Made by a program: the position numbers and the translations under genes
Shown here: piece by piece, positions 4,630 through 58,809 of the stretch
Layout: each line of letters begins with the position of its first letter
Numbering within the stretch: the first letter of the stretch is position 1
NCBI RefSeq assembly: GCF_038039215.1
Contig: NZ_JBBPCL010000001.1
Span: forward strand, 4,650,001-4,714,000
DNA length: 64,000 nt
Reading direction: 5' to 3'
Source of the DNA: Pseudonocardia sp. T1-2H
GTDB taxonomy: Bacteria > Actinomycetota > Actinomycetes > Mycobacteriales > Pseudonocardiaceae
Notes under the pieces: generated by a model
Told to the model about the DNA's origin: nothing
The model's input: the letters and a program-made list of their open reading frames with translations, nothing else
Database searches by the model: none

Positions 4630-5643
4630 GCGCGCCGAGCATCTCCTTCGTCGTGGCCACCCTGAACGAGGAGCGGGCGATCGAGGAGTGCGTGCGCAGC
4701 CTGCTGGCCCAGGACTACCCGGCGGACCGGGTCGAGGTCGCCGTGGTCGACGGGGGCTCGACGGACCGGACCCGCGAGATCGTGGCGGCACTCGCCGCGA
4801 CGGACGGGCGGGTGCAGCTGCTCGACAATCCCGGGCGGATCGCCCCGACGGCGTTCAACATCGGTGTCGCCGCCACGACCGGGTCCCTGATCAGCCTGGT
4901 GAGCGCCCACAGCGTCACGGCCCCCCGGTACGCCGCGCTGCTGGCGGAGGCGTTCGAGAAGCTCGGGCGCGTGGCTCGTGGGCGGGAGGATGGACGCGGC
5001 GGCAGGCCCCGGCGCGCCGCCGATGGCGGAGGCCATCGTACGGGCCACCTCGTCCCCGCTGGGCCTCGGCTCGGCTCGTTTCCACTACAGCGACCGACCC
5101 GGATGGGTGGACACCGCGTTCCCCGGGGCGTACCGGCGGGAACTGTTCGACCTCATCGGACCGTTCGACGAGACCCTCGTCCGGAACCAGGACGACGACC
5201 TGCATCTGCGGGCACGGCTCGCCGGCCGCACCATGTGGTTCGACCCGCGCCTCCGCTCGACCTACCGCCCCCGGGCGAGCCTGCGCGCGCTGTGGCGGCA
5301 GTACTACCAGTACGGCTGGTGGAGGGCCGTCACGGTGTGCAAGCACCGGCGGGTGGCCTCGGTCCGGCACCTCGCCCCCGCGGCGCTCGTCGCGGGGCTG
5401 GCGGGCGCCTCCACCGCGGTGGTGGCGACCCGCCACCGGTCCGCGCTCGGCGCACTCGGGAGTGGCGTCGCGGCGTGGGCAGGCGTGCTGGTCCTCGCCG
5501 GCAGGCGGGAACGCGGGGCGTCGAGCGGCGTCGCAGCGCGGGTGCCGGTGGCCGTGGGCTGCCTGCACCTCGCCTACGGGGCGGGCTTCTGGGCCGGTCT
5601 GCTCCGCAACGCGGTACACGGGCTCCCGGGCCGCTCGACGTGA
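4626..5643 (+). CDS. Glycosyltransferase family 2, ExoA-like (frameshifted)
   Basis: The GTG start overlaps the polymerase stop. The N-terminal half has the GT-A pattern: SFVVATLNEERAIEECV, then VVDGGSTDRTREIV near residues 41-54. The frame is lost at the GGG run 4965-4967. Removing one G gives KLGAWLVGGRM and continues without a break to 5643. That half carries VDTAFPGAYRRELFDLIG, RNQDDDLHLR and a C-terminal membrane region, as in succinoglycan ExoA-type transferases. Corrected length is 338 aa, normal for the family. Both halves are well conserved, so the extra base is either a sequencing error or a very recent mutation. Predicted role: adding one sugar to the growing repeat unit at the membrane. 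Confidence 0.85.
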
Positions 5644-9481: not shown

Positions 9482-10504
9482 AGGGCCACCTCGGGCGTCC
9501 GGGGGGAAGCGGCCACCTCCACCGTCCGGCCCGTCGCGGCCGACTCGCGCAGCGCCTCGGCCACTCGGACCGTCGCGAGCCCGTCCTCCATGGTGACCAG
9601 GCTGTGCTCCTCGCCGCGCACGGCCGCCGCGAAGTTCGACAGCTCCGTCATCAGCGGTTCCGGTTTCGGGATCGCGTACCGCGTCATGTTCCCCTCCGAG
9701 ACGCCGCGGAACGCCGCGACGCGGTCCCAGGCCATCTCCTCGGTCCCGTTCTGGTAGAAGGTCAGGTCCGCGGTCAGCGTGTCCGCGACGAAGCAGCCCA
9801 GCTCCCCCGTCACCGTGGTGACGCGTTCCTTGAGCGGGGAGAGCCAGTTCACCAGGTGCGTGACGACCACTCCGGTCGAGGCTCCCCACCGCGCTGACCA
9901 GGTCCTCGTGCGCGCGCCCGCTCCGGTGGGCGACCCTGGCGGACACCGACGTGTAGGCCGAGCCCGTGACCCACGCGGTCAGGTCGATGTCGTGCGTCGC
10001 CAGGTCCAGGACCACGCCCGCGTCCGCGATCCGCGCCGGGAACGGCCCCTGCCTCCGGGTGCTCACCTGGTAGATGGTGCCGAGCTCGCCGAGCGCGAGC
10101 CTGCGCCGCATGTCCTGCAGGGCAGGGTTGTAGCGCTCGATGTGCCCGACGCAGCCGATCACCCCGTTACGCGCGAACGCCTCGGCGATCGTCTGTGCCG
10201 CCTTCCCATCGTGCGCGAGCGGCTTCTCGACGAGCGTCGGGATTCCCGCCTCGGCGAGCTCGAGAGCGAGCGGCTCGTGGAAGGTGGTGGGTGCCGCGAT
10301 CACGCAGAGATCGATCCGGCGGTCGAGCAGCTCGCGGACCGTGCCCAGCACGTCGACCCGCATCGCGGGGTGCTGAGGCGCGTCGAACCCCCGCGGGTCC
10401 ACCGCGGCGACCAGATCGATGCCGTCCAGGGACTGCAGGGCCCGGGAGTGGTTGCGGCCCATGGCCCCGAGGCCGACCAGGCCCGCCCGCAGCCGGGCGC
10501 TCAT
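9478..10504 (-). CDS. Gfo/Idh/MocA oxidoreductase, WbpB-like (frameshifted)
   Basis: ATG start at 10504 overlaps the aminotransferase stop. The N-terminal NAD domain has GLVGLGAMGRNH, followed by the family EKP motif (Lys ~94) and VLDLATHDIDL with the likely catalytic His ~171. The GHIERYNPA stretch is typical of UDP-GlcNAcA 3-dehydrogenases. The frame breaks at the C run 9884-9887. Deleting one base gives SAVGASTGVVVTHLVNWLS and restores a 341-aa protein. Expected reaction: oxidation of C3 of UDP-GlcNAc uronic acid to the 3-keto sugar, the substrate of the adjacent aminotransferase. Overlapping starts on both sides indicate tight operon coupling. Confidence 0.83.
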
Positions 10505-18361: not shown

Positions 18362-19291
18362 GTGCTGGATCCCGCGGAGCTGTACCGGATCGAGGAGGAC
18401 GTGCCGAGCCTCGACGGGCCGGTGCTCCTGGTGGTGCTCGACGGTTTCGTCGACGCCGGAAGCGCGGGCGGTCTCGCCGTCGACGCCCTCGTCGAGAACA
18501 AGGAGTCCCGCAAGGTCGTCGAGTTCGACGTCGACCAGCTCGTGGACTACCGCTCGCGGCGGCCGCCGCTGCGCTTCGACACGGACCACTGGGCGGGCTA
18601 CACACCGCCCCGGCTGGACGTCGTCGCGCTGACGGATTCGGCGGAGGCCCCGTACCTGCTGCTGTCCGGGCCGGAGCCGGACACCCAGTGGGAGCGGTTC
18701 GCCGCTGCCGTCGCGCAGATCGTCGAGAAGCTGGGCGTCCGGCTGGTGATCACACTGCACGGCATCCCGATGGCCGTGCCGCACACCCGCCCGATCGGGG
18801 TGACGGCGCACGCGACCCGGCGCGAGCTGACCGAGTCCCACGAGGCGTGGTTCGCCGAGGCCGAGGTGCCGGGCAGCGCGGCGGCGCTGATGGAGTTCCG
18901 GCTCGGCGAGGCCGGGGTCGACGCCATGGGCTTCGCCGTGCACGTCCCGCACTACCTCGCGCGCGCCGCGTACCCGCAGGCCGCGCGGACCCTGCTGGAC
19001 CACGCCGCGCTCGCGTCCGGGTTGTACCTGCCCACCGAGTCGCTGTCCCGGGCCGCCGAGCGGACCGAGGCGGAGATCGCCGAGCAGGTCCAGAATTCGG
19101 ACGAGGTGGCGCAGGTCGTGCGGGCGCTGGAGAAGCAGTACGACATGGTCGCGAGCGGGCGGGGCGAGCGCTCCGGCGCCGGGCTGGGCGGGCAGCTGCC
19201 GAGTGCGGACGAGCTGGCGGCCGAGGTCGAGCGGTTCCTCGCGGACCAGGACGACGCGGACGGCAAGGGCGAGAGCTGCTTCCCCGGCTGA
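18362..19291 (+). CDS. PAC2 family protein (proteasome assembly chaperone-like)
   Basis: 309 aa from GTG 18362. This start is chosen because GGAGG sits at 18351-18355, 6 bp upstream. The sequence runs LDGPVLLVVLDGFVDAGSAGGLAVDAL, then VVEFDVDQLVDYRSRRPPLRFD, then LLSGPEPDTQWERFAAAVAQ and HATRRELTESHEAW. These are hallmarks of the PAC2 family (also called the PAC2/COG2047 ATP-grasp-associated proteins), widespread in actinobacteria. Eukaryotic relatives help assemble the proteasome; the bacterial role is unproven. The C-terminal ~90 residues are charged and helical. The gene converges on the E1-like gene across a repeat-rich 501-bp spacer. Confidence 0.85.
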   Translation: MLDPAELYRIEEDVPSLDGPVLLVVLDGFVDAGSAGGLAVDALVENKESRKVVEFDVDQLVDYRSRRPPLRFDTDHWAGYTPPRLDVVALTDSAEAPYLLLSGPEPDTQWERFAAAVAQIVEKLGVRLVITLHGIPMAVPHTRPIGVTAHATRRELTESHEAWFAEAEVPGSAAALMEFRLGEAGVDAMGFAVHVPHYLARAAYPQAARTLLDHAALASGLYLPTESLSRAAERTEAEIAEQVQNSDEVAQVVRALEKQYDMVASGRGERSGAGLGGQLPSADELAAEVERFLADQDDADGKGESCFPG

Positions 19292-19325
19292 CTCCCCGGC
19301 TGAACTGCCGCGGGACCCGGCCCCG

Positions 19326-19394
19326 CGAGTCGCGATCTGACGCCGGGCGAGTCGCGCTCTCGGTCCGTCCGAGTGGCGGCATGGCGCTCGAGAC
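19326..19394 (+). repeat. 22-bp-period repeat array, left arm
   Basis: CGAGTC anchors lie at 19326 and 19348, with CGAGTG at 19370: three units exactly 22 bp apart, then a degenerate CGAGAC at 19389. Between anchors the unit reads like GCGCTCTCGGTCCG. The array starts about 35 bp after the stop of the PAC2 gene and reads in its sense direction. Confidence 0.75.
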
Positions 19395-19554
19395 TCGCGG
19401 CCTGGACGCGCACCGCGGCGTCGGGCGGCGGAACGCCGGAACCGAGCAGCTGCCGGCTCTCGTCGTCCTCACCCGGCTGTATCGCGCCCGGCTCCTGGGC
19501 GAACGTCACGATCCTGGAGCCCAGCGGCGCCCGACGGAGCTTCTCCGCGCCGGC

Positions 19555-19586
19555 CATGGCGTAGGTGCAGCATGGCGTAGGTGCAG
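19555..19586. repeat. Perfect 16-bp tandem duplication
   Basis: The unit CATGGCGTAGGTGCAG occurs at 19555-19570 and again, without a gap or mismatch, at 19571-19586. Identical copies suggest a recent slippage duplication. Confidence 0.85.
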
Positions 19587-19647
19587 CCCGGCGAGATCGA
19601 CGCGAGAGTGGTTCGATCATGACACCGGCCACGCGCCCGTCGAACTC

Positions 19648-19786
19648 GACTCGTCCGGCCCCGGAGCGAGACCCGGGCGGTCTGGAGAGCGCGACTCGTA
19701 CGGCCTGAGAGCGCGACTCGCGGGGGCTCGGACCCCGACTCGGGCGGTCTGGGAGCGCGACTCGCCTGGTCTGAGATACCGACTCG
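19648..19786 (-). repeat. 22-bp-period repeat array, right arm
   Basis: Read on the + strand, GACTCG anchors are at 19648, 19693, 19715, 19737, 19759 and 19781, with a variant GACCCG at 19670. Spacing is 22 bp throughout except one step of 23. The last five are exactly periodic. On the minus strand this is the same CGAGTC unit as in the left arm. The array begins 6 bp beyond the stop codon of the E1-like gene, reading in that gene's sense direction. Confidence 0.82.
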
Positions 19787-19792
19787 CGGGGT

Positions 19793-22087
19793 TTACAGCA
19801 GGTCGAGGGCGGCGGAGAGGATCGCGTCCGCGTCGAGGCCGTGGTGGCGGTAGACGGACTCGAGGTCGCCGGACTGGCCGAACTTCGTGACGCCCAGGTG
19901 GGTCGCGCGGACCTGGTTGATGCCGGCCAGGAACGCGAGGGTGTGCGGGTGGCCGTCGAGGACGGTGACCAATGGCGCCGCCCGGCGCCCGGGGAACGCC
20001 GCGTCGAGGATCCAGGTGTCGGCAGCACCCCTGCCCGCGCGGGCCTGCACGGCGTCGAACAGCAGGCCCGGGCTCGTCACGCACACGACGTCGACGGCCG
20101 TGCCCTGCGCCTCCAGCCGCTCCGCGGCCGCCAACGCCTCGGGCACCACCGCACCCATCGTCGCGATCGTCACGGCCGGAGCGTCCGATGACGACCGCCG
20201 GATCGGGTACGCGCCCGCCACCACCTGCTTGCGGCGGCGCTCCCGGGCGGCGGGATCGGCCGGCACCGCGGCGAGGGACTGGTCGATCGGGCGGGTCGAG
20301 AGCCGCAGGTAGGCCGAGGTCCCGTCCGGCTTGCCGAGCCGTCCGAGCGAGGCCAGCAGCGTCCACTCGGTGTCGATCGCGAACGCGGGCTCGTAGGCGA
20401 TGCAGCCCGGCTGCTCCAGGCCCACCGACGGGGTGGTGATCGACTGGTGCGCCCCGCCCTCCGGCGCGAGCGACACCCCGGACGGCGTCCCGACCAGGAT
20501 CGACTGCCCGCCGGCGTAGATCCCGAACGACCAGGGCTCGAGCGCGCGCTCGACGAACGGGTCGTAGAGCACCCCGATCGGCAGCAGCGGCCGGCCCCAC
20601 CGCGACCAGGTCGCGCCGAGCTCGCCGAGCGCCCCGACGAGGTTGCCCTCGGCGATCCCGAGCTCCAGGTGCTGCCCGGTCGGCTTCTCGCGCCAGTGCA
20701 GGATCGTCTCGGGGTCGTCGTCGAACCAGTCCCTGCGTTCCGCCGGCGACCAGACGCCCACCTTGTTCACCCAGCCGCCGAGGTTGGTCGAGGACGAGAC
20801 GTCCGGGCAGAGCGTCACCACCCGCCGGGCGGCCTCGGGCGCGGAGCGGGTCAGGTCCAGCAGCGCGCGGCCGAGCGCGGCCTGCGTGGTCGCCTTCCCC
20901 GACGGCGTCCGGCCGATGTCCGTGGGCAGTGCCGGGACCGGAACGGGCGCGGGTTCGGAGCGCCGCAGCCTCGTTGCGACCTCTCCGCAGAGCTTGCCCG
21001 CGGGCGTCGCCTCGTCGAACGCCACCCACGGCGCGTCGAGGCTCATGCCGACACGCTCCGCCAGCTCCCCCATCTGCTCGGCCGAGAGCAGTGACGAGTG
21101 GTTCTGCGGGTGCCCCTCCGACGCCAGCCCGTTGCCCTTCACCGTGTACGCGAAGATCACGGTCGGCCGGGTGTCGTCGATGGCCTCGAAGGCGTCCCCG
21201 ACGGCGCGCATGTCGTGCCCCCCGAGGTTCCGGACCGCCGCGTGCAGCGTCTCGTCGTCGAGGGAGTCCACGAGGGCCTGCAGCTCGTCGGAGTCCGGGA
21301 GACGGTCCCGGATCTGCTCGGGCGTGCAGCGCAGGAGCCGCTGGTACTCGGGGTTGGGCATCTCGTCGATCCGCCGGCGCAGCGCGTCGCCGCCGGGCCG
21401 TTCGAAGAGCTCGTGCAGCAGCCGGCCGTACTTGACGGTCAGCACCTGCCAGCCGGCCGCGGTGAACATGCCCTGCAGCCGCGTCGCGCCGATGTTCGGG
21501 ACGACCCGGTCCAGCGACTGGCGGTTCAGGTCGACGATCCAGCAGACCTCGCCCAGGTCATTGACCATCGGGTCCAGGATCGCCTCCCAGACCGCGCCCT
21601 CGTCCAGCTCCGCGTCCCCGACCAGCGAGTACTGCCGTCCGGTGCCGACGGGCTCGCCGAGCGTCGTCACGTAGCGCCGGGCCAGCGCGCCCCAGATCGG
21701 GGCGGTCGCCCCGATGCCGACCGAGCCCGTCGAGTAGTCGACGGGGTCGGGGTCCTTCGAGCGCGACGGGTAGCTCTGCAGCCCACCGAACTCGCGCAGC
21801 GTCGTCAGGTAGGACTCGTCCAGCTCGTCGAGCAGGTAGTTGATCGCGTGCAGGACGGGCGACGCGTGTGGCTTGACCGAGACGCGGTCCCCGGAGCGCA
21901 GGTGCTCGAACCACAGCGCGGTCATGATCGTGACCAGGGACGCGCTCGACGCCTGGTGCCCGCCGACCTTCAGCCCGGTCGGGTTCGGCCGGACCCGGTT
22001 CGCGTGGTCGACGATGGCGGTCGAAAGCCACAGCACGCGCTGCTCGATCTCCCGCAGCACGCCGAGCCGCTCGTCGTCGAGTCCCAT
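19793..22087 (-). CDS. Pyruvate-dehydrogenase E1-like / transketolase-like ThDP enzyme (AceE family)
   Basis: 764 aa from ATG 22087 (MGLDDERLGVLREIEQ). The N-terminal ThDP domain has VGGHQASSASLVTIMTALWF and GDAELDEGAVWEAI followed by VDLNRQSLD, the Mg-ThDP binding pattern of homodimeric AceE. The pyrimidine domain follows (DVSSSTNLGGWVNKVG, QHLELGIAEGNLVGALG), then a transketolase C domain. It is shorter than E. coli AceE (about 890 aa), and no E2 or E3 gene is nearby, so whether it feeds a pyruvate dehydrogenase complex or acts on another 2-keto acid is open. A divergent Lrp/AsnC gene 130 bp away is the probable regulator. Confidence 0.83.
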   Translation of the reverse strand: MGLDDERLGVLREIEQRVLWLSTAIVDHANRVRPNPTGLKVGGHQASSASLVTIMTALWFEHLRSGDRVSVKPHASPVLHAINYLLDELDESYLTTLREFGGLQSYPSRSKDPDPVDYSTGSVGIGATAPIWGALARRYVTTLGEPVGTGRQYSLVGDAELDEGAVWEAILDPMVNDLGEVCWIVDLNRQSLDRVVPNIGATRLQGMFTAAGWQVLTVKYGRLLHELFERPGGDALRRRIDEMPNPEYQRLLRCTPEQIRDRLPDSDELQALVDSLDDETLHAAVRNLGGHDMRAVGDAFEAIDDTRPTVIFAYTVKGNGLASEGHPQNHSSLLSAEQMGELAERVGMSLDAPWVAFDEATPAGKLCGEVATRLRRSEPAPVPVPALPTDIGRTPSGKATTQAALGRALLDLTRSAPEAARRVVTLCPDVSSSTNLGGWVNKVGVWSPAERRDWFDDDPETILHWREKPTGQHLELGIAEGNLVGALGELGATWSRWGRPLLPIGVLYDPFVERALEPWSFGIYAGGQSILVGTPSGVSLAPEGGAHQSITTPSVGLEQPGCIAYEPAFAIDTEWTLLASLGRLGKPDGTSAYLRLSTRPIDQSLAAVPADPAARERRRKQVVAGAYPIRRSSSDAPAVTIATMGAVVPEALAAAERLEAQGTAVDVVCVTSPGLLFDAVQARAGRGAADTWILDAAFPGRRAAPLVTVLDGHPHTLAFLAGINQVRATHLGVTKFGQSGDLESVYRHHGLDADAILSAALDLL

Positions 22088-56898: not shown

Positions 56899-58809
56899 AT
56901 GAGGCGCCGGCGCCCGGCCCCCGCCCGACACCTGCACCCGCTCACGGCGGGCGGCGCAGTGGTCGCCGTGGTGGGCCTGACGGTTCTCACCGCGTCCTCC
57001 GGCCCGAGCGCCGCCGTCCACGGCGGGCGAGCCGGGGAGTTCGGCCTGCCGCAGCCTGCCGTGACCGTCGCGGACACCACGACCGCCGGCTCCGTCCTTC
57101 CGGCGAGCACCCAGCCGCAGCCGCCGGCATCGGTCGTCGATCCGGTGCCGGTCTCGTTCACGACCGGGCTGCCGGACCGTCGCGCCGCCACGGCCATCGC
57201 CGCGGCGATGGCCCAGATCGGCCTGCCGTACGTGTGGGGCGGTAACGGGCCCACGGAGGGCGACGCCGGGTTCGACTGCTCGGGGCTGACCCACTTCGCC
57301 TACGGCGTCGCCGGGATCGACCTCCCCCGCACCGCCCACACCCAGTACTACGAGGGCCCGCACGTGCCCGCCACCGCGGGCCTGCAGCCCGGCGACCTGG
57401 TGTTCTACGGTGTTCCGGCCATGGTGCACCACGTCGGCATGTACATCGGGAACGGCAAGATGGTGAACGCGCCGACCTTCGGGGAGCCGGTGCAGGTCGC
57501 CTACTACCGCTGGACGGGCGACGACTACCTGGGCGCCACCCGGCCCGCCACCAGCGGCGTACCCGACACCGGACTGCTGTCCGTGGCGCCCGAGCCCCGC
57601 CCCGCCGCGCCGCCGGCTCCGGAGATCTTCGAGGCGCCGGTCGCGCCCGTGCCGACCGAGGTGCCGGACCCGAGGGTTCCGGAGCCGCCGCAGTCGGAGA
57701 CCGCCGCGCTGTCGATCGCACAGTCGGCGACGAGCCCGGCCACGTCACCCGTCTCGCCCAGGGCCGCTGCGGTCGCACCCAGTTCCTCGGGCACGGCGCA
57801 CGAGGCCCCGGCGGCGTCCTCGTCGGATCCGGGCTCCTCCTCGGCCGTGCCCGGTTCGTCGGCCGCGGCAGCCCCGTCATCGCAGGCACGGTCGACATCC
57901 GCCGAATCGGCGCCCCCGACCTCCACGAGCACGACCTCCCCGACCACGACCTCCCCGACCACGACCTCGCCCGCTCCCGCCGCGGCGCCCGCGGCCGTCG
58001 TCCCGACGACACCACCGTCGGTCACTCCTCAGACCCCCACGCCTCCGCCCACGACGCCCTCCCCAGCCACGAGCTCGGCGCCACCCACGAGCTCGGCGCC
58101 ACCCACGAGCTCGGCGCCACCCACGAGCTCGGCGCCACCCACGAGCTCGGCGCCACCCACGAGCTCGGCGCCACCCACGAGCTCGGCGCCACCCACGAGC
58201 TCGGCGCCACCCACGAGCTCGGCGCCACCCACGAGCTCGGCGCCACCCACGAGCTCGGCGCCACCCACGAGCTCGGCGCCACCCACGAGCTCGGCGCCAC
58301 CCACGAGCTCGGCGCCACCCACGAGCTCGGCGCCACCCACGAGCTCGGCGCCACCCACGAGCTCGGCGCCACCCACGAGCTCGGCGCCACCCACGAGCTC
58401 GGCGCCACCCACGAGCTCGGCGCCACCCGTCTCGTCCGCCACACCGACGCCGTCGAGCAGCACGACGAGCGCGTCACCCGCTCGCCCGAAGACCGTCACG
58501 TTGCCCGGCGGCGCCGTCACCGTCACGTCGGCCCGCACGGGTGCGGACGGCCTGCCGGTGCCCGGCGGTCTGGCGGCGACCAACGGCCGCAAGGTCCTCC
58601 GGCTCGCCACCGCCGCGCCCGCGGAGGGGGCGGCCGAGGGTAGCGCCGTGACGGTGACCGACACCGCCGGGGCGACGACATCCTTCACGGTCGCCACCTC
58701 CACCGCAGTGACCGATGCGCAGGCCGCGGTACAGGCTGCGCCGGCCGGGAGCCTCGTCGTTCTCATACCCGAGGCGGGGGGCGGTTGGACGGTCCTCGTC
58801 GCTTCGTGA
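56899..58809 (+). CDS. NlpC/P60 peptidase with long Ser-Pro-Thr repeat stalk
   Basis: 636 aa from ATG 56899. A hydrophobic N-terminal segment ([18 protein letters not shown]) exports or anchors it. The NlpC/P60 domain at ~95-205 has [16 protein letters not shown] with Cys ~127, [10 protein letters not shown] with His ~178, and NAPTFG with Asn ~190 as the third residue. A Ser/Thr/Pro-rich region follows, ending in 20 copies of SSAPPT (58071-58430). The C-terminal ~120 residues form a small beta-rich domain. The enzyme likely trims peptidoglycan while the stalk spans the wall. I expect O-mannosylation of the stalk, as in other actinobacterial secreted proteins. Confidence 0.88.
58071..58430 (+). 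repeat. 20 tandem copies of an 18-bp unit
   Basis: The unit GAGCTCGGCGCCACCCAC repeats 20 times with no visible base change until the final copy, which ends CCGT. It encodes SSAPPT hexapeptides in the NlpC/P60 gene. Absence of synonymous changes indicates recent expansion or ongoing homogenisation. It also opens long artefactual frames on the other strand. Confidence 0.95.

Follow-up and report, generated by a model that had tools for sequence, protein, structure and literature searches.

The two arrays of 22-bp repeats lying between a PAC2-family gene and a convergent E1-like gene of Pseudonocardia sp. T1-2H are members of a Pseudonocardiaceae tandem-repeat family, found directly behind stop codons and most frequently between convergent genes. 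The arrays were analysed in a DNA stretch of 64,000 nucleotides, referred to as the window. The gap that hosts them is 501 bp long, and separates the called PAC2 gene (18362..19291, + strand; Pfam PF09754, E 5e-67) from the called transketolase / pyruvate dehydrogenase E1-like gene (19793..22087, - strand; Pfam PF00456, PF22613 and PF17831). The sense array behind PAC2 (19326..19375, + strand) begins 34 nt past the stop at 19291, and features exact CGAGTC anchors at 19326 and 19348 and the variant CGAGTG at 19370. The main - array (19693..19786), which is sense for the E1-like gene, carries exact GACTCG anchors at 19693, 19715, 19737, 19759 and 19781, and ends 6 nt from the E1-like stop at 19793. 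Outlying - units (19648..19675) include an exact anchor at 19648 and GACCCG, with one mismatch, at 19670. These two are 22 bp apart, and 23 bp separate 19670 from 19693, so that the outliers are shifted by one base relative to the register of the main array. All these anchors had been listed in an earlier note on this DNA, and were found again by direct reading. Absent from that list is a lone inverted anchor, an exact GACTCG at 19392..19397 (- strand) located just 3' of the + array. It forms a pair with the first + unit by arms of 13 nt (19323-19335 and 19388-19400) that are 92% complementary.

The gap contains five exact anchor pairs at 22 bp. In 2,000 dinucleotide shuffles of its sequence, such pairs averaged 0.0005 and never exceeded 1. 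In the whole window, one mismatch being allowed, 7 matches to the pattern were found versus a mean of 2.42 and a maximum of 6 in 100 shuffles, and 7/7 are inside the PAC2/E1-like gap. Two other repeats are found in the window. An exact 16-bp tandem duplication, CATGGCGTAGGTGCAG, is located between the two arrays (19555-19586). An 18-bp repeat occurs in twenty copies (99% matches) at 58063-58428 within the called ORF 58029-58703 (- strand), and gives a GGAELV repeat in the encoded protein.

The repeat unit is made of a fixed core, a fixed period and a free spacer. Where two exact anchors are spaced by 44 bp, the hexamer halfway between them matches exactly in 154/159 instances in the genome of the window (7.0 Mb, denoted G000; other G and L numbers indicate genomes and loci, respectively) and in 77/82 in G009. 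Anchor pairs at 22, 21 and 23 bp are 227, 4 and 0 in G000, and 127, 4 and 1 in G009. Spacers of adjacent units are 74% (G000) and 79% (G009) identical, and spacers from different arrays 63% and 66%. The spacer sequence is species-specific, and the same core and period recur in many species in association with other spacers. In G000 the core is surrounded by the odd palindrome CGCGAGTCGCG. The palindrome is lost where the core is CGAGTCC or CGTGTC, and the site has therefore been taken as polar. Covariation within the unit was not detected, the mutual information of columns reaching at most 0.16 bit in 240 distinct G000 units and 0.28 bit in 123 G009 units, and the top ten column pairs lacked a pairing pattern in both genomes. 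A CRISPR-like nature of the arrays has been discarded, because spacers within one species have a common consensus. GANTC methylation is unlikely to be the purpose of the core, given that the core is CGTGTC in other genera.

In some species the unit is able to fold on itself, as in P. asaccharolytica (G145), where CGAGTCGCGGTATTTCCGCGAC can give a hairpin of 7 bp closed by a loop of five bases. In the array-rich G000, hairpins containing GGCACTTTCG or CGAACGGCACCTTCG are found at the end of the gap 9697-10392 of L134 and at 5013-5056 of L066, and resemble both P. acidicola array spacers and the hairpin found at the PAC2/E1 gap of P. endophytica. Array spacers may derive from terminator stems.

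The pattern CGAGTC-N16-CGAGTC is present 260 times in G000 (127 forward and 133 reverse), and the same pattern read backwards, used as control, 2 + 0 times. All the cross-genome searches were carried out with the period set at 22 and the backwards control. Free spacing counts were made in G000, G009 and G210, and in the latter CGWGTC pairs are most often 22 bp apart (18 pairs; the next distance is 44, with 6). At least 13 pairs, and up to 374, were found in 39 of the 62 Pseudonocardia genomes searched, and 9 or fewer in the other 23. P. autotrophica hosts 295 pairs, P. bannensis 208 and P. acidicola 115; array-free or array-poor species include P. dioxanivorans CB1190, P. humida and P. endophytica, which have none, and P. 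ammonioxydans, which has one. In array-free G001, the top lags do not include 22 in a small sample of 80 kb (10.6 kb intergenic), and no 12-mer is common to at least 4 of 43 gaps, again a small sample; the tandem-repeat scan of this genome covered one of four stretches. In a PAC2 tree with 31 rows (the window plus 30 of the 32 Pseudonocardia loci searched, L089 and L117 being omitted), the label "12 pairs or more", assigned to 22 rows, requires three changes, a number compatible with ancient presence plus some losses.

In other Pseudonocardiaceae genera the distribution is patchy, and some have a CGTGTC core. At least 12 CGAGTC pairs were found in 23 of 328 non-Pseudonocardia genomes, belonging to eight genera, and at least 12 CGTGTC pairs in 27 genomes of the same set, belonging to nine genera, with some genomes in both groups. 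The backwards control was positive in one other genus, where the places matched look like a 22-bp relative that has diverged and carries GCTCAG in its spacer. Outside the family, 48 genomes from 15 other families of the order had at most three pairs each.

Position and orientation of the copies were monitored in a pooled set of 137 stretches from five genomes, holding 221 arrays, in which gaps of at least 30 bp were considered, and genes were called by a simple purpose-built codon model, not by an established gene finder. Only 11 of the 221 arrays fall inside called genes. Arrays were found in 63/196 convergent, 84/695 co-directional and 9/313 divergent gaps; the stretches were picked for holding arrays, hence gap types are comparable but the rates are not genome-wide. 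In co-directional gaps the median distance is 15.5 nt from the stop to the array start and 72.5 nt from the array end to the next start, and 68 of 84 arrays are nearer to the stop. The arrays are thus a dispersed intergenic family, as the earlier note had suggested they could be, and the family is tied to gene 3' ends.

The same note had claimed that both arrays are in sense orientation relative to the gene they follow. In the family at large this orientation is favoured but is not a rule; the five genomes do show a link to gene 3' ends and to orientation, the lack of which the note had named as refuting its view. The first array within 60 nt from a stop is sense at 113 ends and antisense at 47 (113/160, 71%; p 1.9e-7), ends that are not all independent, since a single array located in a short convergent gap is counted for both genes. 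The figures are 98 and 41 when G120, the sister genome of G000, is left out. Co-directional gaps with arrays in a single orientation are sense in 43 cases and antisense in 21, and in convergent gaps of this type the array is nearer to its own-sense stop in 34 cases and to the other stop in 12. In four genomes from two other genera (29 arrays on 20 stretches, with a single array inside a called gene), arrays were found in 5/20 convergent, 14/94 co-directional and 2/38 divergent gaps; 11 were sense and 8 antisense, and the sense bias is not seen in this small sample. Two called ORFs, at 9260-9378 of L064 and 8746-8853 of L142, extend across an antisense array located at the 3' end, and the arrays would code for C-terminal tails if the ORF calls are right. 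A replichore polarity of the KOPS or Ter type has been rejected, as + and - arrays alternate along the G000 chromosome among the matches listed; a run of + places in one G009 listing was not borne out by further search.

The PAC2/E1 gaps of relatives were read by eye. Arrays are present at this position in P. acidicola (L086) and in the MAG OFTM178 (L118). The sister locus L084 features a three-unit - array behind PAC2, and the E1-like gene is not seen to follow in the stretch viewed. Arrays are missing at the gap of L091 and L094 despite array-rich genomes, at the gap of the array-poor L096, L100, L103, L104, L106 and L107, and within 8.9 kb in L085. In P. endophytica (L100), P. parietis (L107) and TRM90224 (L094) a hairpin is found in place of the array. 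In L118, after position 4939, an opposed pair makes a long, nearly perfect stem of GACTCG/CGAGTC units.

The nearest genome found is the MAG RYN_114 (G120), which is 96.5% identical to G000 in flanking coding DNA. Among 70 orthologous gaps, 20 have an array in G000, and 19 of these have one in G120 also; none has an array in G120 alone, and 50, of which 17 divergent, are array-less in both. A second method, based on neighbouring reciprocal best hits and applied to non-divergent gaps in part of the stretches, gave 10 gaps with arrays in both genomes, 2 in G000 only, none in G120 only and 52 in neither. The stretches used in both methods were selected for arrays, which favours shared positions, and the array-less gaps of the same stretches serve as control. 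Positions common to the sister species could result from simple inheritance.

Array content changes at a faster pace. Exact anchors at one gap may number 14 in one sister versus 4 in the other, or 19 versus 5, and other spacer subfamilies may be found at the same gap. In 38 ungapped unit pairs from the 20 array gaps, 217/228 anchor positions (95.2%) and 467/608 spacer positions (76.8%) are identical, and anchors are exact in 30 of the 38 pairs; array-less intergenic DNA from 49 gaps is identical at 9724/10313 positions (94.3%). The difference is significant between anchors and spacers (p 2e-11), but not between anchors and ordinary intergenic DNA (p 0.67). In gaps of similar length, a coarser count gave 398/434 (91.7%) for anchors and 695/876 (79.3%) for spacers. 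Anchors withstand spacer turnover, but their conservation does not exceed that of array-less intergenic DNA, and gives no sign of additional purifying selection. In the comparison of non-divergent gaps of G000 and P. acidicola, arrays were found in both at 3 gaps, in G000 only at 3, in P. acidicola only at 2, and in neither at 40 (p 0.010). G000 has few gaps in common with G009 and G068: arrays were present in both genomes at none, in one only at 3 and 1, and in neither at 8 and 4, respectively. In G120 the arrays combine spacers of several subfamilies, similar to the ones found in G000, P. acidicola and P. asaccharolytica, which may denote exchange between lineages or a mixed bin.

A protein-binding array, one of the options put forward in the earlier note, fits these data best, because core and spacing are fixed and the spacer sequence is not. 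The most likely reading, to which we assign a probability of about 0.4, is that a protein binds the core as a polar site, and that the array serves as a transcript boundary. The core would be recognised by a putative sequence-specific DNA-binding protein, several copies of which could load along the DNA at sites spaced about every two helical turns. The bound array would mark the end of the transcription unit, either impeding RNA polymerase or separating convergent transcription. Several observations count against a boundary role. First arrays are antisense at 47 of 160 ends, and sense arrays outnumber antisense ones by just 11 to 8 in the two other genera; anchors are not conserved above array-less intergenic DNA; nearly array-free Pseudonocardia genomes (23/62) live without arrays; and L091 and L094 come from array-rich genomes, and yet lack an array at the PAC2/E1 gap. 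The broader proposal, that a bacterial family ends or insulates many transcription units by arrays of polar sites for a dedicated protein, a roadblock-type equivalent of hairpin terminators, and that the sites co-evolve as a satellite in which the core follows the protein and the spacers drift, appears unlikely.

The strongest competing reading, a serious though tentative possibility, takes the arrays as a selfish or neutral satellite. Arrays would arise by slippage and by exchange between dispersed copies, and would survive only behind genes, coding and promoter DNA being intolerant; the fixed core would be a signature of how copies are made or exchanged, and would be of no use to the cell. 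The fast turnover agrees well with such an origin, ungapped spacers being much less conserved between the sisters than array-less intergenic DNA, and so do the unequal anchor counts and differing spacer subfamilies at a same gap, and the 23/62 Pseudonocardia genomes that have few or no pairs. The paucity of arrays in divergent gaps would be similarly expected from purging at promoters. Plain slippage, however, would not keep the core exact in 154/159 instances while adjacent spacers differ by 26%. This would take a core-specific machinery, and none is known. Both the sense bias and the recurrence of arrays at the same gaps in P. acidicola, though the gaps are few, are unexpected from passive tolerance.

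Arrays might alternatively be RNA elements, either bidirectional hairpin terminators or 3' stabilisers, the stems of which grew by 22-nt duplications and have the arrays as arms. Gaps with arrays in both orientations do fold strongly in two genomes, the mean z, calculated on the first 140 nt past the stop and on one strand per gap, being -2.52 in G000 (n=28) and -5.70 in G009 (n=13), and hairpins replace the array at the PAC2/E1 gap in the three loci mentioned above. The two G068 gaps of this type have a mean z of -0.9, and in each of the three genomes the folding of single-orientation gaps does not exceed that of array-less ones: -0.73 (20) versus -1.22 (70) in G000, -1.15 (16) versus -1.28 (70) in G009, -0.88 (11) versus -1.13 (70) in G068. 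Arrays alone, folded as sense strand, have z values of -1.04 (58), -1.69 (42) and +0.19 (16) in the same order. In the window, a scan of the region 19200-19900 revealed no G+C stem followed by a T run, and the one Rfam match in 19250-19850 (E 4.9, 14.7 bits versus a gathering score of 42.5) does not identify a family. The earlier statement that the arrays are not palindrome-based holds for single-orientation gaps, and fails for the G000 and G009 gaps with both orientations, which form strong hairpins. Structure accounts for some gaps only; the feature shared by all is a linear core at 22-bp steps, which would fit a protein bound to double-stranded DNA, and the RNA reading seems rather improbable. 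Sites for topoisomerases or nucleoid proteins relieving positive supercoils between convergent genes, as BIME-2 and gyrase in E. coli, are improbable as well, since arrays are found also in 84/695 co-directional gaps, even if the rate is highest in convergent ones, the spacing is regular, and gyrase binding is reported for BIME-2 in the sections of PMC2817692 consulted.

Array-rich and array-free species coexist within one genus, and the reading of the arrays as protein-bound boundaries can be directly tested. Many Pseudonocardiaceae are antibiotic producers. If a protein reads the core, the family uses a gene-end device of which no description was found in print. Even if selfish, the arrays make up a bacterial satellite that has kept its core and period in several genera, and offer a clean system for learning what preserves the core of a repeat while the spacer scrambles.

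Intrinsic terminators are located at gene 3' ends, and consist of a G+C stem followed by a T run. The arrays have the same location, and form hairpins when opposed, but no stem with a T run is found in the PAC2/E1-like gap, and single-orientation arrays have no excess structure. REP and BIME elements are positioned downstream of genes. Similarly to those of enterobacteria and pseudomonads, the arrays are short extragenic repeats, dispersed in many copies (260 pairs in G000; 11/221 arrays in called genes) and found also as opposed pairs. REPs are described as 20-40-bp palindromes in the consulted sections of PMC3733652; the arrays are in contrast direct tandem 22-bp repeats with a fixed hexamer and a free spacer. 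BIMEs bind several proteins, and BIME-2 and atypical BIMEs bind DNA gyrase strongly, according to the portion of PMC2817692 available. RAYT (Y1) transposases, monitored as PF01797, were found in 5 of the 62 Pseudonocardia genomes and not in G000. The five genomes host 13 (G008), 55 (G020), 113 (G022), 0 (G015) and 4 (G003) pairs. Mobilisation of the arrays by RAYTs has been rejected, because a Y1 transposase is missing from 57/62 genomes of the genus.

As in the bacterial intergenic satellites described in the sections seen of PMC6749651, related tandem arrays of one family are scattered between genes over the genome; unlike those satellites, period and core are kept over many species and genera, and there is a 3'-end bias. 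The same sections of that survey do not mention the 22-bp family. No account of it was found by term search in the text available of the Pseudonocardiaceae genome papers PMC3469384 and PMC4210621, and of the REP surveys PMC3733652 and PMC12306157. Among the matches listed from the open-access literature of PMC, neither titles nor the opening lines of abstracts describe a 22-bp CGAGTC repeat. A phage or plasmid origin may still apply, though it draws no support from the IMG/VR and plasmid matches. In IMG/VR, 17 stretches match the three-unit pattern; most are almost perfect repeats, have spacers of 5 or 16 nt and differ from this family, the nearest in look being L257, L268 and L270; a single query against plasmids gave one 36-base match. 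Roadblock terminators such as the Sal boxes bound by TTF-I and the Reb1 sites are known in eukaryotic rDNA. Should a protein bind the core in a polar fashion behind genes, the arrays would be akin to these terminators, by functional analogy only, with the difference that they are placed at scattered gene ends and not in rDNA.
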